Made by a program: the position numbers and the translations under genes. Below are positions 316 through 19,481 of a stretch of 21,561 bases of DNA, in pieces. The stretch is from positions 1-21,561 of the IMG/VR virus record IMGVR_UViG_3300020385_000799; one strand, written 5' to 3'. The stretch is from a virus. The notes beneath the pieces were generated by a model. That model was not told the origin of the DNA. It was given only the letters and a program-made list of their open reading frames with translations, and did not search any database. The stretch's first letter is position 1. The number at the start of each line of letters is the position of its first letter.

Positions 316-735
316 TTAACCCCTTACCGCTACGATTTCATAAGTGTATCCAGATATTTTTTGGGTTTGTATTTTTAAACCGTTTGCTTTCAGTATTCTA
401 GTTATATTCTTTAAAGAAGATATAGAATTACTTTGCTCAACAATTGCCCCAAATGAACGCTCGTCTATTTGTCCAGAAATAAGCTGCCTTGATAACACAT
501 TGCAATCCAAGCCTCTCAAACTAAGCTTACCGCCCAGTCTTATCTTTTTCAATAACGAAGCAAGGCTGCCTTCAAGCTGGCTAGATTTAAATTTATCTAC
601 AACTCCATTGGCTCTAATCTCTAAGCACTCTGAGTCAGATATGTCGAACATATTTATAAAACCGTCTTCATTTACAACTACAGCCTTGTATCCAGATATT
701 GCTTCTTCTGAATTTCCCACTATGTCTATTTTCAT
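316..735 (-). CDS. Methyltransferase-like small protein (function unproven)
   Basis: A 139-residue protein with an ATG start overlapping the stop of the upstream glycosyltransferase (ATGA). The central part (SLASLLKKIRLGGKLSLRG, about residues 57-75) resembles the late strand of class I SAM-dependent methyltransferases, where a kxLkpGGxLxi motif precedes the last strands. The following LDCNVLSRQLISGQID also fits small phage methyltransferase-like proteins found next to glycosyltransferases. The N-terminal glycine-rich SAM loop is not evident, so it may be a shortened or non-catalytic version. It sits at the end of the sugar-transfer operon, which suggests a role in glycan or nucleotide-sugar modification, but this is inference only. 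Confidence 0.65.
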   Translation of the reverse strand: MKIDIVGNSEEAISGYKAVVVNEDGFINMFDISDSECLEIRANGVVDKFKSSQLEGSLASLLKKIRLGGKLSLRGLDCNVLSRQLISGQIDERSFGAIVEQSNSISSLKNITRILKANGLKIQTQKISGYTYEIVAVRG

Positions 736-1718
736 TTTAAATCCTCGTATACTTTTCTAAAAATGCTGTTCCAACTATCTATGTACTTTTGCTCAGAAAA
801 TATATCTAGAACGGTTTCTCTAGCAGCTTTACCGATGCTAACTCTAAGAGCTTTATCGTCCAATAGTTGTTGGATATAACCTTTAAATTCTTCTTCATCG
901 TTTGTTAAAAAACCATTACGTCCATGCTCAATAAAGCTTGGTATAGAACATGTAGCCGTACTCACTACAGGTTTGCCACAAGACATAGCTTCAAGGATAG
1001 CTGTCGGCATCTGGCTTTCCGTAGTAGTGTTGACATAAACAGCGCACTTATTATATTCTTCTCTAAGATGCTCTAGTGAAGATGCAACCTTTGAAAGTCC
1101 CGGCGTATCACCAAGCACTTTTGCGTTGAAGCCATTAATTATACGCTGCCAGCCACTAAAATTCAAGCAATAATCTCTATTAACAAAATCATTTTGCACT
1201 GTAAATACTGTTTCGTCTGACTCTACTTCTATCGGTTTGAAAAATTCATGGTCAATAGAATTGCATATAACTGTTTCACCTTTGTCAAAACCCCAAGACT
1301 CTCTGGCGTATTCACTAATAAATACATTGTAGTCACCCCAAATGCTTTTAAACATCTGTAGCTGTTCGGGGGTATAATTTGAAGTTGGAATAGTGTGTTC
1401 AAGGTGTATGATCGGCAAACCTATTTGCTCCTGTATTTGCCTTGATATTTGCAGTTGACCAAATTTACTTTGAGATAATATAAAGTCAAAATCTATTTCA
1501 GGATACATATTTTCTATTGGATGGTAGTTTTCTGGAATCTTAGCGAAATCTTCATTCCAAACTTTGCAGTCTTGATATCTAAATGCATAAAAATTATGTC
1601 CTGTTTTTGCCATTTGCGATTGACATCGCTCATGAGTGTCAAAGCAAAGAATGTCTAACCTTTCTTTGTTCTTTGGTTTTATTGCTTTTTGAATAATTGA
1701 TTGTGAGCTATATGTCAT
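732..1718 (-). CDS. GT-B fold glycosyltransferase (GT4-like)
   Basis: A 328-residue protein that would transfer a sugar from a nucleotide-sugar donor, acting in the cytoplasm. The C-terminal domain shows the GT4 signature: TESQMPTAILEAMSCGKPVV near residues 233-252, followed by a terminal helix. The usual E-x7-E pair is imperfect. The second Glu (E243) is in place, but the first (E234) is one residue early, with Ser at the canonical position. The N-terminal half, with LEHTIPTSNYTP around residue 106, is a plausible acceptor domain. The basic donor-contact residues are not obvious. It overlaps the upstream glycosyltransferase by 11 bases and is one of three GT-B enzymes in a row. The acceptor (virion protein, DNA base or host surface glycan) cannot be told from the sequence. 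Confidence 0.87.
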   Translation of the reverse strand: MTYSSQSIIQKAIKPKNKERLDILCFDTHERCQSQMAKTGHNFYAFRYQDCKVWNEDFAKIPENYHPIENMYPEIDFDFILSQSKFGQLQISRQIQEQIGLPIIHLEHTIPTSNYTPEQLQMFKSIWGDYNVFISEYARESWGFDKGETVICNSIDHEFFKPIEVESDETVFTVQNDFVNRDYCLNFSGWQRIINGFNAKVLGDTPGLSKVASSLEHLREEYNKCAVYVNTTTESQMPTAILEAMSCGKPVVSTATCSIPSFIEHGRNGFLTNDEEEFKGYIQQLLDDKALRVSIGKAARETVLDIFSEQKYIDSWNSIFRKVYEDLK

Positions 1719-2841
1719 TTAACTGTTCCTTTAAAATACTTCCTACGTTTGCGTATGAGAATTTTTCTACCTGTTTTAGCCCAGCCACTCTGTTTCTTTG
1801 ACTGTAGCCGATTGGGTCATTGCCCCATGATTGATAGTATTTTCTCATCTGGTCTCTAATTTGCTTTTCGCATGGTTGGAACCAGTATTCTTTGGAGGTA
1901 AAAAGATCTGGAAACGCTGAGTCAACTGATTTACAGCAAGAGTAAACTCCATTCACAAGGGTTCCTGTTCTCCAATTTCCTTTGTCTATAAATTCACAAG
2001 GTCCGCCAAAGTTACTTGCTATTGGCGTATTGCCGAAAGCCATAGCTTCTAAAGTTGGAATACTCCAAGCCTCTCCGTGAGATGGGCATACAAAACAATC
2101 ACAATACTGATGTAAAGAAAACAAGTTGTCTTCGGGAAGCTTGTCTGTTATAATAACTTCCTGCTTATAGCTATTTCTTATTCTAAGCTTCTTTTTTATT
2201 TCAGTTATATATTCTACAACCTTAGAGTGTAACTCTTGGGGGCTTAGTCCAAACTTATTAAACTTTAATATTAGAGATACATTCTCATCTTCTTCAAACT
2301 CAGAATGAAAACAAGTCAAGATAGATTCTAGATTTTTTCTATCGTTAAAATCCCCAACGTAATAGAATTTAAATGTGTTTTCTGTTTGTGGAATAGAAAT
2401 TTCTCCGTAACGCTTTTTGTATTTCGACACATCGCAAGTGTGATGAATAACTTTTACGGGCGGTGTGATCTTATGCGACTCCAAACACTGCTTAGAAGTC
2501 TCATTAGCAACCCATACCTCATCCATCAAGTCCATTTGATAAAACCAATTCAAATGTTTTATATTTAAAGTTTCTGTTTCCATAAATGCTATGGTTTTCT
2601 TAAACTCGTCAGAGCCAACGTAATGATGAGGTAGGACATGCTGAATACAAATGTCACAACCTTTAGAATCTTTTTTTTCTAATTCTAAAATTCTTGGGTG
2701 AACATCCTGCTTGTCTTGAGTTAGTGTTACGTTTCTACAAACAACATCAACACCTACGCTGTCTAACGACAGTATATTGTCTGTTGCCGCTTGAGACCAG
2801 CCCCCAAACTCTTTATAATGTCCCAAATATAAAATTCGCAT
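1708..2841 (-). CDS. GT-B fold glycosyltransferase (GT4-like)
   Basis: A 377-residue enzyme counted from the ATG at 2841. A TTG two codons upstream is also in frame, but an AGAGG ribosome site sits about 7 bases before the ATG. The N-terminus MRILYLGHYKEFGGWS is a typical GT-B first strand with a glycine-rich loop. The donor domain holds YYVGDFNDRKN near residue 165 and a complete E-x7-E motif, HGEAWSIPTLEAMAFGNTPI, with Glu at about 257 and 265. These residues contact the nucleotide-sugar in GT4 enzymes. The start overlaps the end of the upstream methyltransferase by about 29 bases, consistent with coupled translation. Donor and acceptor are unknown. Confidence 0.92.
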   Translation of the reverse strand: MRILYLGHYKEFGGWSQAATDNILSLDSVGVDVVCRNVTLTQDKQDVHPRILELEKKDSKGCDICIQHVLPHHYVGSDEFKKTIAFMETETLNIKHLNWFYQMDLMDEVWVANETSKQCLESHKITPPVKVIHHTCDVSKYKKRYGEISIPQTENTFKFYYVGDFNDRKNLESILTCFHSEFEEDENVSLILKFNKFGLSPQELHSKVVEYITEIKKKLRIRNSYKQEVIITDKLPEDNLFSLHQYCDCFVCPSHGEAWSIPTLEAMAFGNTPIASNFGGPCEFIDKGNWRTGTLVNGVYSCCKSVDSAFPDLFTSKEYWFQPCEKQIRDQMRKYYQSWGNDPIGYSQRNRVAGLKQVEKFSYANVGSILKEQLNDI

Positions 2842-3472
2842 TCTCAACCTCTTTATAGTTTATATTTTTTGTCTTGTAAGATTTATACTTTTCATATATC
2901 TCTTTGTCAACCCACCAATCTTCTACTGGGCCGTATCCGTCTAGTACAACATCTGCGTAAAGAATTTCGTAACCTTGACCGCTTAACACTTCCCTGTAGT
3001 GATAATATTCTTTTTTTATCTTTTCTTTGTGTTCGTCATCATGACTTTGAAGTTCTATATCTTGCGATTGAAATAAATTATGCTCTAAAGTCAATACCTT
3101 AAACCTATATCTATCCCAATCAAACTCATTAAATACTTTTAATTGAGCGTCATCAACATCTAAAGATATATAATCTATAGCGTCTGGACAACCCAGAGAA
3201 CTCAAATGTTGATTTATGTTTACTTCTAATAAGTCTACACAGCTAACTTTACAAGTTCTTTTGTTTTTGACACGATTGTACCAACTCTCATCATAGTCTA
3301 TAGCAATACCTTTCCATCCTCTATATCTCTCAAAGAAATAAGTATTGCTGTAAAATTCTACAGGTCGCCCCGCAAGACCGCCAGTGCCAGCGCCTATGTC
3401 TAAGAAAAACCCTTCATTCTTCTGTAAAATTTTATTTACAAAAACATCTTGTTTTACTTGAGCGTTAAACAT
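2813..3472 (-). CDS. FkbM-type SAM-dependent methyltransferase
   Basis: A 219-residue protein from the ATG at 3472, which overlaps the TGA of the upstream glycosyltransferase as ATGA. An in-frame TTG one codon earlier is less likely. GFFLDIGAGTGG (about 23-34) is the SAM-binding loop. SNTYFFERYRGWKGIAIDYD follows, and then a DYISLDVDDAQ / LTLEHN pair. This order (sNtyflE..gWkGi.ie, SlDvDg, EhN) is characteristic of the FkbM family, which O-methylates sugars and other small groups. The family assignment is strong, the substrate is not. Placed between two glycosyltransferases, it probably caps or decorates the glycan they build. Confidence 0.88.
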   Translation of the reverse strand: MFNAQVKQDVFVNKILQKNEGFFLDIGAGTGGLAGRPVEFYSNTYFFERYRGWKGIAIDYDESWYNRVKNKRTCKVSCVDLLEVNINQHLSSLGCPDAIDYISLDVDDAQLKVFNEFDWDRYRFKVLTLEHNLFQSQDIELQSHDDEHKEKIKKEYYHYREVLSGQGYEILYADVVLDGYGPVEDWWVDKEIYEKYKSYKTKNINYKEVENANFIFGTL

Positions 3473-5154
3473 CAAGACTGTTGCCTCTGTTTTAACGTTT
3501 CAATTCTTTTCTGCTCCCATTGGTTTCTTCTATTGCACAGTCCTGACATTTGATCGTAAGCGATATCGTAATTAAACGGCTGTCTGCGATTCATTCCATC
3601 AAAAGCAGCAGAAGATTCATTAAAATACATACCACCGGTTGATGCGGTTGCTTGTTTGTATATTAAATCCCTTGTTAGCCTAGCTTCAAAAAAGGTGTTA
3701 AGCTTTTCTGGTTCTCTTAAAACGTCTGAAATCAAGTGTTTAGCAAGCTGCGTATTTGATATGGGTGCAGATTGTGAAAAGTCTATTTTTGGAGCTGGCT
3801 CTTGTATTCTAGCTTCAGAAGCCCACGTCTGCTCAAGTGGCAAAGCTTCAAAACTATCAAAGTATTTTTCCCACTGAGAGCCACTTAAATGCCATTGATA
3901 ATACTTCTCAAACATTTCTCTAGTATTTTTTCCAATAGAAGCTCTTTCTTCTTCTGATTTTGAAAAGAACTCTAAGAAAAGACTTGCCGCAGCATCGTTA
4001 TCTGGCACAGCACGTAGACATCCGGTTTCCAACTCCTTGTATAAAGCTTTAGGTTTAATCGGATAACCCTCTAGCTTCCTTAACACGCTTTCCATAGCCG
4101 AATAGTCCGTTCCGCAGACAGGCACTCCGCAGGCGGCAGCCTCTACTTGTGGTAAACCAAAACCTTCAGAATTTGCATACTGAGTAAATAGGTCAAAACA
4201 GTTTACCACATTAGATAATTCCTCATAACTAAGTCCATTTTTTACATTAGATAGCGTTGCTCCAAACCTACCAGTGTAAGGCGATTGAACCATAGCGCCT
4301 TTAAAAACAGAAGTAAATGGCTTTTTAGTCTCTGGGCAAATATAAGTAAATAATACCTTAGATCCAATTCCATGTTCGTTTAAAAGTTCAGGTATGTCCC
4401 AGCCTAAGTCTGGATAAGACGTATGGCAGTATAGGTAATAGTTTTTATCTTCTGATTTATCTAAAAATTTCTTAAATGCTTCAAACAAGTCTGGATATAG
4501 CTTGCGCCTTTGGTTTCTCATAACCGTGCCAATAATTTTACAGTCTGGGTCAAGACCCATAAGTTGCTTGTGTTTCCTCTTGTCTTGAGTGGGCTTGTAT
4601 GCAGGGTGAGCAGATGGGGGTGCGCTACCTAAATACTTAATCTTACCACCAGACTGATCTTGCAAAATACCACCCGCCCAATCTGAGTATGTTAGACAGG
4701 CATCTGCACTTGTGTAGGTTGCAACCCATTGTCTTGCTTGAGGTCTAGCGTCAACCGTTGGCATGATAGCCCATTTAAAATAAGGTCTAAATGGAGATCG
4801 TTCAGCAAAATCTAGCATCCAAAAGTCACGAATATCGCACACCACATCTGGCATAAAATCTAGACAGACATGCTCAAAAATCCATTCTCCAAACTGAGAT
4901 GAAGGAGTAGCATTATAAGAGTCTAGTTCTTGCTGAGAAGCTTTTGGTTCGCTTTGTTGATTAGGCACTACGCCGTAGTATGTCCAAGGAATGTTAGCTG
5001 CCCTTGGGTCATTTCTCTCTCCGTAGGCTGCCAACTCTGCTAGTTCATATTTACCAGTAGAATGTAAATAATTTAATATTTCCCTAGTATATGTAGCGTA
5101 CCCTGTGTTTAGAAATGTAGCTTCACTGCAAAACAGAATTCTTTTTTTTCTCAT
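3472..5154 (-). CDS. Large GT-B glycosyltransferase with C-terminal extension
   Basis: At 560 residues it is the longest glycosyltransferase here. The N-terminal domain starts RILFCSEATFLNTGYATYTRE, with a glycine/threonine acceptor loop. The donor domain has IGTVMRNQRRKLYPDLFEAF (about 208-227), in which the RNQRRK stretch fits the usual R/K donor contacts. A clear E-x7-E motif, NSEGFGLPQVEAAACGVPVC, has E330 and E338. Between them, residues 243-320 contain a YCHTSYPDLGWD...YICPETKKPF segment that may be a small cysteine-bearing insert. About 120 residues follow the catalytic core (from about 440) with no recognised domain; they may serve oligomerisation or acceptor docking. It starts one base after the SSB gene and opens the glycan cluster. 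Confidence 0.92.
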   Translation of the reverse strand: MRKKRILFCSEATFLNTGYATYTREILNYLHSTGKYELAELAAYGERNDPRAANIPWTYYGVVPNQQSEPKASQQELDSYNATPSSQFGEWIFEHVCLDFMPDVVCDIRDFWMLDFAERSPFRPYFKWAIMPTVDARPQARQWVATYTSADACLTYSDWAGGILQDQSGGKIKYLGSAPPSAHPAYKPTQDKRKHKQLMGLDPDCKIIGTVMRNQRRKLYPDLFEAFKKFLDKSEDKNYYLYCHTSYPDLGWDIPELLNEHGIGSKVLFTYICPETKKPFTSVFKGAMVQSPYTGRFGATLSNVKNGLSYEELSNVVNCFDLFTQYANSEGFGLPQVEAAACGVPVCGTDYSAMESVLRKLEGYPIKPKALYKELETGCLRAVPDNDAAASLFLEFFSKSEEERASIGKNTREMFEKYYQWHLSGSQWEKYFDSFEALPLEQTWASEARIQEPAPKIDFSQSAPISNTQLAKHLISDVLREPEKLNTFFEARLTRDLIYKQATASTGGMYFNESSAAFDGMNRRQPFNYDIAYDQMSGLCNRRNQWEQKRIETLKQRQQS

Positions 5155-5155
5155 C

Positions 5156-5476
5156 TTATTCCTTATCTAAACAACCAAAGTCAAATTCATTAATTCTAAA
5201 TACAATATCGTCTGTGGCCTCTGTTTTCATAAACCCGTTTCTAGCCGAAGCGTAGACGGTCATTTTAGTTCCCTTCTTTCCTAGTTTAGCGATTGTCTCT
5301 GCACCGCTAGCCCAAGCCTGTAAGGTGATTGTTGTAGGAACTTTTTTCTTTTCCCCACGTTTATTCTTTCGGTACTCGTAAGTCACCATCTTTACGGTGC
5401 AGCAAGCTGCACCATCTCCTCCCATATCTACCTGCGGGTCATGTAAAAGATACCCAGTAAAAGTGCAATTATTCAT
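5156..5476 (-). CDS. ssb: Single-stranded DNA-binding protein (OB fold, SSB-like)
   Basis: A 106-residue protein counted from the ATG at 5476. A strong GGAGGG ribosome site (bases 5486-5481 on the minus strand) sits four bases upstream of it, which favours this over the TTG at 5479. The N-terminus MNNCTFTGYLLHDPQV followed by AACCTVKMVTYEYR matches the first strands of bacterial SSB, where the protein opens with strand-loop-P and a FxvA-like strand. LQAWASGAETIAKLGKKGTKMTVYA corresponds to the strand-helix-strand that follows. It lacks the long Gly/Pro tail of cellular SSBs but ends acidic (EFDFGCLDKE), as SSB C-terminal tips do. It lies 49 bases downstream of the polymerase C-terminal half, fitting a role at the phage fork. 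Confidence 0.82.
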   Translation of the reverse strand: MNNCTFTGYLLHDPQVDMGGDGAACCTVKMVTYEYRKNKRGEKKKVPTTITLQAWASGAETIAKLGKKGTKMTVYASARNGFMKTEATDDIVFRINEFDFGCLDKE

Positions 5477-5525
5477 CAATCCCTCCGAAATTTAATATGT
5501 ATCACCTGTTATACCTTGATCAGAC

Positions 5526-7073
5526 CTATATTTCATGTATTTTATTGATAATAAATGAATTATTTTTATCAGTCTTTCCACAAAGCAGTAAATTGTTGTT
5601 CTCAAAAAGTATATATTGGTATTTTTCTCTAGTTTCTGGAAATACAACCACACTATCCAACGAACACGTTTCGTCTTCTATGGTTAAAAAGCTCATCATC
5701 TTGCCGTTTTTACATTTGTGATCTGCAACTCTGTTTACACTAGCTGCCACGCAAAGAGTTTCACCTTTTTTTCCGTCTAGTATTTCTTTACAGCTAGTAT
5801 TTGCAGAAGACGTGTCTGACGATTCAATCCTAGAGATTGAAATTGGACAACCTAAAAACTTAATTTCTTGCTCAACAACCCAAGACGGATCATCTGAAAG
5901 TTCATAGGGTGGATTTTCTAGAAAACAAATCTCATTTTTTACATCTTCACTGCGAGAAATTTTACTTGTGCCGCCACCTTGCTTTTTTGTAGGCGCTAAG
6001 TCCGTAAAACATTCTGTCAGCGTTTTCCATTTTTTAGATTTGTAGTTTTCTGTAACCCACTTTATTTCAGCTTTTGTTAAGTTTTTAAATATCAAGTATT
6101 CGTATAGCGCTTTATTTCTGCTGATACCCGTTTTCTTGGTAGAGAAGAACCCTATGGAACACAGAGCCTTAAAGCCAGTTGAGTTAATTTTTGTAGACAA
6201 ATATATAAGTATATCCATCCAAGTAAAGTTAGCTGGTCTTTTATTTATCTGTTCACTTGTATCGTTTATGGCATTGATAACCTTATCGCCATTAACACCA
6301 GTCAACGACTTTACATTTTTAATTCCAAAGTATATACCTTTATCAGTAATAAAAAATTCCTCTGACCATTCTGACAGCTTTGGAATTTTCACCTCAAGGT
6401 CAAAAAGCTTCGCTTCTGAAACAAGCTCGTAGACTTCTTGGTGAGGATCTTGCTTTTCATTTGCGTACATTAGGTAAGACAGAAAGAACTCTTTAGTGTG
6501 ATTAGCTTTATACCAAGCGCTCAAGTATGAGTTCATGGCGTAAGCGACAGCGTGACTTTTATTGAAAGAATATCTAGCGGACTTCTCAATCCAACCAAAG
6601 ATTTCATCCGCAGTTGCTTCGTCTACGGTTTTAAGCCTCTTACAGCCTGATATGAAGTCTTTTCTAACCCTAGCCATAAGATCGGCTTTCTTCTTTCCAA
6701 TTGCCTTACGAAGCACGTCAGCCTCTTGCAGATTAAATCCAGCAATCTTTTGGGCGATACGCATACACTGTTCTTGATAAATCAAAACGCCATAAGTCGG
6801 TTCAAGAATATCCTTTAGAGATTCATGTAGGTATGACACCTCTTCGACCTTGTGTTTTCTATCAACATAGTGCTGGCTCATAGACTTACCGTCAGTGATT
6901 GCTTTAAGACAACCCGGACGTAGAATACTAATCAATGCAGCAAGATCTTCCAAATTTTTAGGCTTGACTTTCTTTGACCAAGAGCGACCAAGGTTACTCT
7001 CTAACTGAAAGATTCCTTTGGTTCTACCTTCCTCAAATAAATCCCAAGCTTTTTCATCATTATAATCAATCAT
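5526..7073 (-). CDS. dnaE: DNA polymerase III alpha, C-terminal half (fingers, later domains, OB fold)
   Basis: This 515-residue gene begins exactly where the fingers domain of a bacterial Pol III alpha begins. IDYNDEKAWDLFEEGRTKGIFQLES aligns with the E. coli stretch ending in AVFQLES. LRPGCLK, DILEPTYGVLIYQEQCMRIAQKIAGF, ADVLRKAIGKKK and YSFNKSHAVAYA follow in the normal order. The last about 100 residues (FLGCPISISRIES, then FLTIEDETCSLDSVVVFPETREKYQ) are the OB-fold domain. The tau-binding C-terminal domain of E. coli DnaE is absent. No catalytic aspartates are here; they are in the partner gene at 8064-9611. The start ATG overlaps the endonuclease VII-like gene by 8 bases. The FNKSH site, where cyanobacterial split DnaE inteins sit, is uninterrupted. 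Confidence 0.93.
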   Translation of the reverse strand: MIDYNDEKAWDLFEEGRTKGIFQLESNLGRSWSKKVKPKNLEDLAALISILRPGCLKAITDGKSMSQHYVDRKHKVEEVSYLHESLKDILEPTYGVLIYQEQCMRIAQKIAGFNLQEADVLRKAIGKKKADLMARVRKDFISGCKRLKTVDEATADEIFGWIEKSARYSFNKSHAVAYAMNSYLSAWYKANHTKEFFLSYLMYANEKQDPHQEVYELVSEAKLFDLEVKIPKLSEWSEEFFITDKGIYFGIKNVKSLTGVNGDKVINAINDTSEQINKRPANFTWMDILIYLSTKINSTGFKALCSIGFFSTKKTGISRNKALYEYLIFKNLTKAEIKWVTENYKSKKWKTLTECFTDLAPTKKQGGGTSKISRSEDVKNEICFLENPPYELSDDPSWVVEQEIKFLGCPISISRIESSDTSSANTSCKEILDGKKGETLCVAASVNRVADHKCKNGKMMSFLTIEDETCSLDSVVVFPETREKYQYILFENNNLLLCGKTDKNNSFIINKIHEI

Positions 7074-7416
7074 TATTTTCTCTCAAATATTCCATAGCTC
7101 TTTGTAAAATGTCTGGATCATCGTGAAGTAGCCCTATTCCAGAATTACAAGACGTACAAATATAGCCCCTGAATTTTAAACTGGCATGACAGTGGTCTAA
7201 AACCCATCTATCTGTTTCCGAGTTGCAGATCCTACAAACACCCGGAGGAGGAACTGGATTCTCAATTCTTAACTTCTTTCTGATATCTGATTGCTGCTTA
7301 TGACACTTCTTGCATCTATTTCTAGTAGCTCTATGTTTACCATCAGCTTTTACAAATTCAGAATCAGGTTTAGTTTCCTTGCAGGTTTTACAGGTTTTAT
7401 AGGTAAGTGTTCCCAT
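7066..7416 (-). CDS. Endonuclease VII-like (His-Me finger) nuclease between the two polymerase halves
   Basis: A 116-residue protein from the ATG at 7416, supported by AAAGG about 10 bases upstream; a TTG six codons earlier is possible. It has four CxxC pairs (Cys 9/12, 35/38, 61/64, 87/90). The core WVLDHCHASLKFRGYICTSC followed by NSGIGLLHDDPDIL matches the phage T4 recombination endonuclease VII family: the D-H-x-H pair carries the catalytic His, flanked by zinc CxxC pairs. The typical tail (lq.A..YL) is present. The family resolves branched DNA, and relatives also act as mobile nicking or homing enzymes. It overlaps the exonuclease end by 20 bases and the polymerase C-half start by 8, inside a split dnaE, which raises the homing possibility. 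Confidence 0.88.
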   Translation of the reverse strand: MGTLTYKTCKTCKETKPDSEFVKADGKHRATRNRCKKCHKQQSDIRKKLRIENPVPPPGVCRICNSETDRWVLDHCHASLKFRGYICTSCNSGIGLLHDDPDILQRAMEYLRENND

Positions 7417-8071
7417 CTGCGAATGCCTTTTCAAGTTTTAGGTTTCTGTAAACAGCACGATGTGTCTTCATAAACTTAATCATTAGATTGGCCGTATCCT
7501 TAACGTCCTGTAGGGCATCGTGAGCATTATCTTTTGACATTCCCATTCTGTCTCTAATGGTATCCATACTTCTAGATTTTATACTAGGGTCGCCTTCTGT
7601 CCACATCCAATAGTTGTCCATCATGTCAACTTTATACACTTGACTAAACAACTTTTGGCCCTGTCTAGACTCATCCCAAGGTCCATACTCTTTGCAAAAC
7701 CTATTTACCAAAACCATATCGTATCCTATAATGTTATACCCTGCCGGAATGGGGGCAAAAAACGGGGTTCCCTTCCAATTATACTTGTTTACAAAGTTGC
7801 AAAACTTTGACCATACAGCTTTTGGTTTAGGGGCTTTAGATATTTCCTCTCTAGTCTTTCCTGTGACTTTTAAAGCGCCGTCTTCAATCGGACCTAAACC
7901 TTTTTTGGTAGCCTTGTCGTCATCTGTTTCTGCCCATATTTCACTGTTAAAAGTGCCTTTAAGTTTAAAGTTTCTACCATCCAAAGCTAATGCCGCCAAT
8001 TGGGTGGCTTGGCAAGTATGTGGATTTCTACCACCTGTCTCAAAGTCAAATACAATTATATCTCTATTCAT
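7397..8071 (-). CDS. DnaQ-like DEDDh 3'-5' exonuclease (probable proofreading subunit)
   Basis: A 224-residue exonuclease with all five catalytic residues visible: D9 and E11 in IVFDFETGG (Exo I), D118 in AGYNIIGYDMVLVNRF (Exo II), and H184 and D189 in NAHDALQDVKDTANLM (Exo III, H-x4-D). This is the DEDDh class used by the Pol III epsilon subunit. It starts within the last 8 bases of the polymerase N-half, so translation is probably coupled, and it precedes the polymerase C-half. The obvious role is proofreading for the split Pol III alpha. A general 3'-5' exonuclease for DNA or RNA cannot be excluded. No clamp-binding peptide was identified with certainty. Confidence 0.92.
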   Translation of the reverse strand: MNRDIIVFDFETGGRNPHTCQATQLAALALDGRNFKLKGTFNSEIWAETDDDKATKKGLGPIEDGALKVTGKTREEISKAPKPKAVWSKFCNFVNKYNWKGTPFFAPIPAGYNIIGYDMVLVNRFCKEYGPWDESRQGQKLFSQVYKVDMMDNYWMWTEGDPSIKSRSMDTIRDRMGMSKDNAHDALQDVKDTANLMIKFMKTHRAVYRNLKLEKAFADGNTYL

Positions 8072-9611
8072 TTAATATTTCCTTTATTTTCATTACCTTG
8101 TCAAGAGTGGATAATCCTAGCACATCAAATTTAACGTGACCAAGCGCTTCTAGATCTGACATTTCTAGTCCAGCGATTTTTTCATCTGCGTTTTTTTGGG
8201 TAGCCATAGGGCAAACTTTGTGTAGTGGCTCTGCTGAGATAACAACGCCCGCAGCATGTTTACCCTGAGTTTTGAAAGTTCCTTCTATCTTAATTGCTTT
8301 ATCAAACATGTCAGCGTAATCACCTTCTAGCTGCCCTTCTTCGTTAACAAAACAATACCCTCTTAGTTCTTCTGGGTTGTTTATCAAAGCCCACTTAATA
8401 ATAGACCTCTCGTCGTCATCCATTTGTGATAATTGATCTGATATGTCTGCTTCGTTTGGTATAACTTTTGTGATTTCATTCATTTCCGAAAATCCACACG
8501 CTTGATAAACCCTAAGCACTTCTTTCAAAGCGCTTCTTCCTTGCAGTCTACCGAATGTGAGCATCTGACTAACTCTTTCTGTTCCGTAAGTTTTACGAAG
8601 ATAATCAATAACTTCATCTCGTTTCCCGGCAGGAACGTCCATGTCAATGTCAGGAAGAGAAACGTTGCCGTCAGTATTTCTACCAGAGTTATAGAATCTT
8701 TCAAAGATTAAATCAAACTTTACCGGATCTACTTGAGTAACACCAATAAGGTAAGAAATTAAACAGCCAGCGGCAGAGCCTCGACCGGGACCAGCCATCC
8801 AACCTTGATTTTCCACATGGCGAATAATATCACTAACAATTAGAAAGTAACCAAATAGATTAGCTTGTTTAATAACCTCAAATTCTTTGTTAAATCTTTC
8901 CCCATACAAGTCCCACTTGTCGTCACCTTTTTTAATATCTCTACCTAGCTTTTCGCTCCATCCCTTTCTGGCTAGCTTGCGTAGGTAATCTTCTTCGGAC
9001 TGACCGTTGGGACACGGGAATGTAGGAAGCATTGGATTGTTAAGAATATCATATTGCTCACACTCTTCTAGTATGTCGTCAAATTGCGTTGTTTTAACAG
9101 AAAGATCTTTAAGATAAAAATTATCTTTGTTAAAAAACTTTTGCAGAGATGTATCTTTAGCTTTCTCTTTAGCGTTTGACATGGTACACTTTAGATTAGA
9201 ACACAATAGAACCCTATGGAGTTCTGCGTCTTCTTTTTGCACATAGTAAGACTCTGGAAAATCTTTGTTGGGTTTTACTTTAAATAGATTTTTACTTTTA
9301 ATAGACTTTGCTAAAAGCTTGGCGTCTACTTCGTCATTTTGAATTGACGACACAAGTTCTATAAGTTCGTACCAGCCGTCTTTGTTTTTTGCAAACAAAC
9401 TGAAGCCATCAAAGCTACAGCCAATGATCGGCATGATGTTATTTTTCTTACAAGCTAAGTAAAAAGATACAGCGCCAGAGATACTTTTGTAGTCAGCTAT
9501 GCCGCAAGCTTTGTATCCGCGAATCTTGCACTCTGAAACAAGTTCGTCTGGCTTAGAAAACGCACGAAGAAGTGAATAGTGCGTGTAGTTACACAACGGG
9601 AACCAAGTCAT
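8064..9611 (-). CDS. dnaE: DNA polymerase III alpha, N-terminal half (degenerate PHP, palm, thumb)
   Basis: A 515-residue protein from the ATG at 9611, with an AAAGGAA site about 7 bases before it; a TTG one codon upstream is less likely. It opens like a PHP domain (FPLCNYTHYSLLRAFSKPDEL), but the histidines of the usual HxHxxYS signature are Pro and Tyr. The region up to the palm is also shorter than in E. coli. The palm follows: AGPGRGSAAGCLISYLIG, SLPDIDMDVPAGKRDEV (catalytic D323 and D325) and HVKFDVLGLSTL (catalytic D496, equivalent to E. coli D555). The protein ends 18 residues after that aspartate, at the palm/fingers boundary. Fingers and OB domains are in the gene at 5526-7073. All three metal-binding aspartates are present, so activity is expected when paired. 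Confidence 0.93.
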   Translation of the reverse strand: MTWFPLCNYTHYSLLRAFSKPDELVSECKIRGYKACGIADYKSISGAVSFYLACKKNNIMPIIGCSFDGFSLFAKNKDGWYELIELVSSIQNDEVDAKLLAKSIKSKNLFKVKPNKDFPESYYVQKEDAELHRVLLCSNLKCTMSNAKEKAKDTSLQKFFNKDNFYLKDLSVKTTQFDDILEECEQYDILNNPMLPTFPCPNGQSEEDYLRKLARKGWSEKLGRDIKKGDDKWDLYGERFNKEFEVIKQANLFGYFLIVSDIIRHVENQGWMAGPGRGSAAGCLISYLIGVTQVDPVKFDLIFERFYNSGRNTDGNVSLPDIDMDVPAGKRDEVIDYLRKTYGTERVSQMLTFGRLQGRSALKEVLRVYQACGFSEMNEITKVIPNEADISDQLSQMDDDERSIIKWALINNPEELRGYCFVNEEGQLEGDYADMFDKAIKIEGTFKTQGKHAAGVVISAEPLHKVCPMATQKNADEKIAGLEMSDLEALGHVKFDVLGLSTLDKVMKIKEILNE

Positions 9612-9628
9612 CAATATTTCCTTTCAAT

Positions 9629-18611: not shown

Positions 18612-19072
18612 TTTCTTTTACCCTTTTCAAATAGTATGTCTGCTTTTCTTCTAACATTGTACTCTCTAGACTTAATATTTTCAAGCCTTCCTTGCGCAGT
18701 TAGTTTCCATTCATTGATTTTTCTTGCTAAGTCGTCATTTCTAAGGATGGTAGCGACCTTTGTTTCATGTTTAGCGTATGTGTCCCAAACTCCGCTGTTT
18801 AAAGCTTCTGATATTATACTCTGTAATGAGTTTTCACACCATCGTATTACATTTTCACACTGGGCGCGTTCTGTTCCAACGTGATCTACATATTGCATTA
18901 ATTGATATGCGTAACCAAAGCAATCGTCTTGTGTAAGCTTATCTAAGTTACTTAACGATAAAGTTTCAGCTACGGCAAATTCTGGATTAAATTTAGTAGG
19001 AGTTATATTCTTGGCAGTAATATATGCTTCGATACCATCTAGAAACTCTTTCAATCTTTCAGCGGCTGTCAA
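18608..19072 (-). CDS. Helical phage protein beside recA (possible recombination accessory)
   Basis: A 154-residue all-helical protein (MTAAERLKEFLDGIEAYI, then ECxx-like YAYQLMQYVDHVGTERAQCE and a charged tail). It uses a TTG start at 19072 with GGAG eight bases upstream; no in-frame ATG lies near. It overlaps the nuclease gene by 14 bases. Similar helical proteins often lie beside recA in phages as I recall them, but no function is known to me. A mediator or ssDNA-loading role (UvsY-like) is a possibility based only on position and helical content. Confidence 0.7.
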   Translation of the reverse strand: MTAAERLKEFLDGIEAYITAKNITPTKFNPEFAVAETLSLSNLDKLTQDDCFGYAYQLMQYVDHVGTERAQCENVIRWCENSLQSIISEALNSGVWDTYAKHETKVATILRNDDLARKINEWKLTAQGRLENIKSREYNVRRKADILFEKGKRK

Positions 19073-19481
19073 TTTGTTTTCTCCAATCTTCTATACTGTC
19101 TGAATATTTAAGGGCAATTAATTCTATGTCATTTAAAGTACACCAGTCTTCTTTTATAAAGTCTCTTTTACGCGAAGTCAAGAACCCAGCTTTGGTTTTA
19201 TGAAAAAACTTACAGAACTCATAGTGTTGTTGTCCGTGAACTTCAACACCCAACTGTAAGTTGGGAATAAAAAAGTCTAGAAATAATGTAGACTTCTTGG
19301 CTGGATCTCTTGACCCCGGTAATTTAACTTCTTCTAAAACGCTGTAACCTGAAAACATTTCGTGCAATAATTTTCTTGCTGCCATGTGGTACTTTGATTT
19401 AACTGTTTTATCGTCGTTTTTTATAATGTATTTTTTTAAATCTAAATTATATTCACGACCATTTAAACCAAGGACTTTCAT
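19059..19481 (-). CDS. Small PD-(D/E)XK-like nuclease
   Basis: A 140-residue protein in the recombination block. It has HMAARKLLHEMFSGYSVLEE with Glu50-51, then LFLDFFIPNLQLGVEVHGQQ and HYEFCKFFHKT, and RDFIKEDWCTLNDIELIALK. The arrangement E...(strand) LDFF-I-P...VEVHGxQHY fits a compact PD-(D/E)XK nuclease in which the acidic pair D69 and E79 would hold the metal and Gln/His follow. It resembles Vsr-like or DUF559-like phage nucleases by eye. The ATG overlaps the RecA stop (ATGA). Likely action is nicking or cutting DNA during recombination or repair; specificity is unknown. Confidence 0.78.
   Translation of the reverse strand: MKVLGLNGREYNLDLKKYIIKNDDKTVKSKYHMAARKLLHEMFSGYSVLEEVKLPGSRDPAKKSTLFLDFFIPNLQLGVEVHGQQHYEFCKFFHKTKAGFLTSRKRDFIKEDWCTLNDIELIALKYSDSIEDWRKQIDSR
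19070..19084 (-). promoter_or_regulatory. Ribosome binding site deciding a TTG start
   Basis: GGAG at 19084-19081 lies eight bases upstream of TTG at 19072-19070. The next in-frame ATG would remove a third of the protein, so the TTG is the preferred start of the helical protein at 18608. Confidence 0.6.

Follow-up and report, generated by a model that had tools for sequence, protein, structure and literature searches.

What becomes of a replicative DNA polymerase when its catalytic subunit is encoded by two genes, and no intein or intron is seen that could rejoin the products? This question is raised by a virus locus in the stretch IMGVR_UViG_3300020385_000799, positions 1 to 21,561, hereafter called the window (21,561 nt), to which coordinates refer unless a relative is named. 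A sequence-only reading of the window had claimed that the alpha subunit of DNA polymerase III (Pol III) is divided there at the palm/fingers boundary into two genes whose products work together without trans-splicing. Our analysis supports this claim, and we consider it very probable that the family C alpha subunit is made as two separately translated polypeptides that assemble without splicing, with an exonuclease as their proofreading subunit. In the proposed mechanism, an N-half (PHP, palm, thumb and all catalytic aspartates) and a C-half (fingers to OB fold) would be translated separately and would join non-covalently across the surface that links palm to fingers in intact DnaE. Between the halves, the overlapping exonuclease gene would encode the proofreading subunit of this polymerase core. 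We infer from sequence that the halves bind each other, that they polymerise and that the exonuclease acts on the two-piece polymerase. The genes and motifs concerned are the following.

8064..9611, minus strand: N-half of DNA polymerase III alpha (PHP, palm, thumb); the open reading frame (ORF) is open to a TTG at 9614, and the ATG is at 9611.
8643..8651, minus strand: codons of catalytic aspartates D322 and D324 (PDIDMD; equivalents of E. coli D401/D403), invariant in 51 relatives and in cellular DnaE.
8124..8126, minus strand: codon of the third catalytic aspartate, D497 (KFD; equivalent of E. coli D555), invariant in 51 relatives.
7397..8071, minus strand: gene for a DEDDh (DnaQ-like) 3'-5' exonuclease, which shares 8 nt with the end of the N-half gene.
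7066..7416, minus strand: Endonuclease-VII-type HNH gene at the 5' end of the C gene; ORF open to a TTG at 7434; PF02945, E 4e-15.
5526..7073, minus strand: C-half of DNA polymerase III alpha (fingers up to the C-terminal OB fold), with a new ATG overlapping the HNH stop.
6552..6566, minus strand: intact FNKSH motif, residues 170-174 of the C-half; relatives L052 and L232 have a split intein at FNK/S.
5156..5479, minus strand: gene for a single-strand DNA-binding protein (SSB), downstream; PF00436, E 5e-8.

Read along the minus strand, the order is therefore N-half (9611-8064), exonuclease (8071-7397), HNH (7416-7066), C-half (7073-5526) and SSB (5479-5156). The two polymerase genes are not adjacent but lie about 990 bp apart, with the DnaQ-like exonuclease and HNH endonuclease genes in the gap. 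From the N-half to the C-half, successive genes overlap by 8, 20 and 8 nt, the HNH gene being counted from its ATG.

Both halves were identified by profile search and by structure. The N-half matched PF07733 over its full length (E 1.5e-68) as well as the PHP domain (E 3e-14), and the C-half aligned to the fingers model PF17657 starting at profile position 25 (E 4.7e-48). Each half was modelled singly with AlphaFold2 from 51-row alignments drawn solely from its own clade, giving mean pLDDT values of 92.2 for the N-half and 92.8 for the C-half. VIA-align placed the N-half model on residues 3-574 of E. coli alpha (2hnh; Z 26.7, rmsd 2.8, 477 aligned) and the C-half model on residues 588-910 of the same structure (Z 20.8, rmsd 3.3, 315 aligned) and on 588-1073 of 5fku (Z 22.9, rmsd 8.8). 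On Taq alpha the two models covered residues 5-637 and 647-1121, and the best structural matches of both halves were all Pol III alpha. The three catalytic aspartates and the GPGRGS motif (G275/G277-S280) all lie in the N-half and were invariant across 51 sequences. With its PF07733 palm, PF17657 fingers, these residues and the DnaE fold, the polymerase belongs to the DnaE type.

Because the N-half model ends at E. coli residue 574 and the C-half model begins at 588, the break sits in the palm/fingers linker, and the C-half starts at the fingers as the earlier reading had it. Intact polymerases mostly keep KFD and FQLE 52 residues apart (46-54); where the polymerase is split, the N-half ends about 20 residues past KFD, and the C-half begins at residues that align with IPLDDxKTY. 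The window's N-half has D497 of 516 residues, that is, 19 residues follow the third catalytic aspartate rather than the 18 first reported. Between 9 and 13 linker residues are lost at the break, as is, at the C-terminus, the tau-binding region of the E. coli enzyme. Both halves nevertheless appear near-complete, the N-half with all catalytic aspartates and the C-half from fingers to OB fold. Nothing essential had been thought lost, and the junction table, the invariant residues and the structural alignments agree that no catalytic part is missing.

To place the break among relatives, each half and the exonuclease served as queries for related viral loci, and the scan was extended to genomes of bacteria and archaea. 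At every locus holding all three genes, the N-half, exonuclease and C-half were separate ORFs in that order. This arrangement was found in 182 loci with distinct exonuclease sequences, which excludes chance or an assembly error and answers the earlier call for other splits at the same site. In a maximum-likelihood tree of 58 sequences (a quick search, with some long branches among intact phages), 33 of 33 sampled split sequences fell on one side of a single branch (SH-aLRT, an approximate likelihood-ratio branch test, 100), which requires a single change of state. No unbroken close relative was present among the loci collected or in the tree. The nearest intact polymerases, from phages and cells, were only about 30% identical, indicating that the split is old, and the most divergent members (L367 and L368, 41-46% identity) were also split. 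No cultured relative exceeded 60% identity among 50,697 phage records, the best matches being about 30% identical. Thus neither a related phage with an intact gene nor an assembly error, either of which would have told against the split, was encountered. From these data we conclude that the split is fixed in one large, uncultured phage clade. That the break is clade-wide and old, that the exonuclease gene always lies between the halves and that the HNH gene is a recent insertion all go beyond the sequence-only reading.

Several observations on individual members of the collection are recorded here. The terminases of Microcystis phage MaeS and Bacillus phage Stills are only about 25% like one from L457. 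Cellular bins were considered as a guide to the host: L367 comes from a Flavobacteriales metagenome-assembled genome (MAG) and L368 from a Lokiarchaeota MAG, but both are probably binned phage contigs and were not used for this purpose. In L049 (4271-6261) and L051 (5947-7963), a further, intein-free break interrupts the N-half immediately ahead of the DxD motif; the N piece after it starts with about 75 new residues, and Cellulophaga phage phi13:1 is split in the same region. A cellular DnaE (L420, 2737-5892; bacterium bin WY2.bin132, contig coverage ~1) is read as two ORFs near the palm/fingers site. An in-frame stop or a sequencing error is the likely cause, since both matches share one frame.

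The halves bear the marks of functional genes. Against L002, whose proteins are 90-96% identical to those of the window, the ratio of nonsynonymous to synonymous substitution rates (dN/dS) was 0.06 for the N-half, 0.03 for the exonuclease and 0.03 for the C-half, and values against the nearest relatives were 0.03-0.08. Both polymerase halves are under strong purifying selection. The pairwise distances of N-half, exonuclease and C-half also correlated with one another (r 0.88-0.91, 154 loci). Shine-Dalgarno complementarity of -4 kcal/mol or stronger preceded the start at 85% of loci for the N-half, 96% for the exonuclease and 44% for the C-half, where the start was whichever candidate close to the homologous one scored best, a choice somewhat in favour of starts; 11-17% of internal ATGs reached this level.

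PF07733 gave one match in each of 12 long contigs (122-174 kb), and no family A or B polymerase was detected in these 12 contigs, although the positive controls worked. The simplest inference is that the two-piece enzyme is the replicative polymerase of the phage. Three points weigh against this picture. The C gene has a weaker Shine-Dalgarno signal than the N-half and exonuclease genes do; a bacterial beta clamp (PF00712) was not found in eight of the long contigs; and the 12 contigs may be incomplete, so that another polymerase may be encoded outside them. The last two points would suit an accessory role, in which a two-piece repair polymerase serves the phage while the host replicase copies its genome. 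We regard this alternative as improbable, although it survives better than the others considered below. Primase-, DnaB- and UvsX-like genes lie upstream of the polymerase cluster, whose surroundings are those of an ordinary phage replication block, no other polymerase was detected, and a conserved exonuclease gene accompanies this one.

The exonuclease matched RNase_T (E 4e-11) and PHROG 192, 'DNA polymerase exonuclease subunit' (E 9e-23). Its residues D9, E11, D118, H184 and D189 were invariant and assign it to the DEDDh group. Because the DEDDh residues are present and the gene is always in the polymerase cluster, the exonuclease likely has a proofreading role, acting on the two-piece polymerase. 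In E. coli, epsilon binds the PHP domain of alpha (PMC3642679). In a pbunavirus, an intact DnaE gene is immediately preceded by one for a 3'-5' exonuclease, so that exonuclease and DnaE genes are neighbours elsewhere too. A larger part can be imagined for the exonuclease, as a structural third subunit that bridges both halves in place of the missing linker in an obligate complex of all three proteins; we hold this extension to be rather unlikely. Were it true, polymerisation and proofreading would be assembled, and perhaps regulated, as one complex, and the fixed place of the exonuclease between the halves would reflect ordered, co-translational assembly.

The PHP domain itself varies within the clade. 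Its HxH metal ligands are lost in the window's group (window 9614-9400, at the start of the N-half) and kept in the early-branching L135 and L368; these two and the window's group alike have a separate exonuclease. If the separate exonuclease had taken over proofreading, loss of HxH in the window's group could be expected.

Could the halves instead be joined into one covalent protein by a split intein or split intron at the break? There is precedent, as cyanobacterial DnaE is joined by a split intein (PMC3919608) and this same polymerase carries split inteins in L052, L122, L125 and L232. However, none of the 32 split junctions read had an intein tail or head. The genes overlap by a few nucleotides and hence leave no space for an intron, and an Rfam scan of the window and nine relatives found none. 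The locus thus does not belong to the cyanobacterial split-intein type, and the FNKSH motif, the cyanobacterial split point, is intact in the C-half. These results uphold the sequence-only reading, which had seen no intein at either end, and make trans-splicing very improbable.

The inteins of the relatives, recognised from sequence (a CLD or CFLPDT start; HN or SN before Ser/Cys) and not by profile search, lie elsewhere in the polymerase (cuts are marked by a slash). In L052 (721-3638), L122 (3337-5311) and L125 (2573-5343), the N-half is cut at GPGRG/S by an intein-like pair (CFLPDTRVKM... and ...VHN/SA), with a nuclease-like ORF between the parts in L052 and L125 and none in L122. In L052 (4982-7826) and L232 (5632-8524), the C-half is cut at FNK/S by intein-like halves with a nuclease-like ORF between them; the first piece has the tail CLDP...YVYNN and the second the head ...VVSN/S. 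The C-half of these two loci appears to be a fractured gene within an already split polymerase. A free-standing endonuclease-like ORF thus lay between the parts in 4 of 5 split-intein cases. L167 (9331-11676) has a 782-aa C-half with a full intein-like insert, including an HNH motif, at RPG/C. The inteins of the relatives are sporadic and young, whereas the palm/fingers break is older and bare.

Homing endonucleases are known to split other phage genes (PMC2988022), and HNH genes occupy the site in the window and in many relatives, so the polymerase might have been split recently through insertion of the window's HNH gene. The distribution of inserts makes this no more credible than trans-splicing. 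The HNH gene is absent from the near relatives L002, L003 and L011, and L002 and L003 are split without it. In these two, the C gene begins inside the 3' end of the exonuclease gene as ATGGAAACACTTACG then TTTGATTAT. In the window it is the HNH ORF that opens with this start region (ATGGGAACACTTACC), and the C gene begins at a new ATG overlapping the HNH stop; the HNH gene thus entered, about 5 codons in, a C gene that was separate beforehand, and appropriated its start. Moreover, 61 of the 127 loci examined are split although free of an insert at either junction; 30 have one only between exonuclease and C-half, 22 only between N-half and exonuclease, and 14 at both. HNH distances did not co-vary with those of the polymerase genes (r 0.11-0.17, 22 loci). 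The inserts read, judged by eye, comprised several kinds of HNH genes, other nuclease-like ORFs and a methyltransferase-like ORF; this last, not a nuclease, lies at the junction of N-half and exonuclease in L036 and L038 (7620-8310 in each). The HNH gene of the window is thus a recent secondary insertion, and both junctions are hot spots for mobile genes whose present inserts did not cause the split. The original fission may have come about through an older, lost endonuclease or through the arrival of the exonuclease gene.

That the halves are decaying remnants in a phage that replicates via another polymerase is the least credible alternative, for although phages can carry degraded genes and an accessory split Pol III accompanies a family B enzyme in some members of other phage groups (PMC7824862), it is contradicted by the low dN/dS ratios, the invariant catalytic residues and the 12 long contigs with no detectable family A or B polymerase.

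Two further features of the window lie outside the polymerase cluster. A second homing-type HNH endonuclease gene (19059-19481, PHROG 9084) adjoins the UvsX-like gene, and three glycosyltransferase genes and an FkbM methyltransferase gene (732-5154) lie directly downstream of the replication genes.

The clade shows that a large and diverse group of viruses can maintain Pol III alpha in two unlinked pieces, with the palm cut from the fingers, in phages with no other polymerase detected. The break offers a naturally occurring place to divide Pol III into two parts and a test of the importance of the covalent palm-fingers link. Within the clade, one polymerase displays bare breaks, split inteins, a cis intein and homing endonucleases together, a combination useful for studying the origin of fractured genes.

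Among known systems, the family B polymerase of the T4-like Aeromonas phages 25 and 44RR is similar in being a two-gene replicative polymerase that works without splicing and in which a homing endonuclease gene can intervene; in phage 25 the two products of gene 43, 43A and 43B, purify together and have polymerase activity, and NrdA of Aeh1 keeps full activity although split, which gives experimental precedent for non-covalent reassembly (PMC2988022). Our locus likewise has two genes, complementary halves and no splicing element found, as known here from its sequence. It differs in that the polymerase is of family C, the split is clade-wide rather than known from a few related phages, and an exonuclease gene lies between the halves. 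In group 2.2 jumbo phages, the family C catalytic subunit is also formed by two proteins with no intein reported, but that enzyme is a minimal Pol III alpha split between its NTP-binding and Mg-binding parts, is encoded by distant genes and occurs alongside a family B polymerase (PMC7824862). The polymerase described here is nearly full length (PHP to OB fold), lies in one gene cluster, is split between palm and fingers and is the sole polymerase detected, with no family B enzyme in the 12 contigs; it is therefore not of the minimal type. Cellulophaga phage phi13:1 / phiST (KC821625) has two neighbouring genes annotated as Pol III alpha, with no intein seen at the junction, but the break is just before DxD, no exonuclease gene intervenes and the sequence falls on a separate branch of the tree. 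Cyanobacterial DnaE also has two genes, and in relatives L052 and L232 a split intein even occupies the FNK/S site close by, but the cyanobacterial break is at another site and is repaired by trans-splicing. In E. coli, the Pol III core combines the DnaE-type alpha fold with a separate DEDDh exonuclease (epsilon), as here, but alpha is one chain with a tau-binding C-terminus, whereas our enzyme has two chains without that domain. A split intein explains the two-gene family B polymerase of Pseudomonas jumbo phage MIJ3 (PMC6892783), whereas an intron was suspected in OM43 phages, which were also noted to have split DNA polymerases (PMC10580990). A literature search, mainly of open-access papers, returned no report of the split described here, although prior notice elsewhere is possible. 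Split phage polymerases as such are already known; what appears to be new is a near-full-length family C polymerase that is cut between palm and fingers, intein-free and clade-wide, with an exonuclease gene between its halves.
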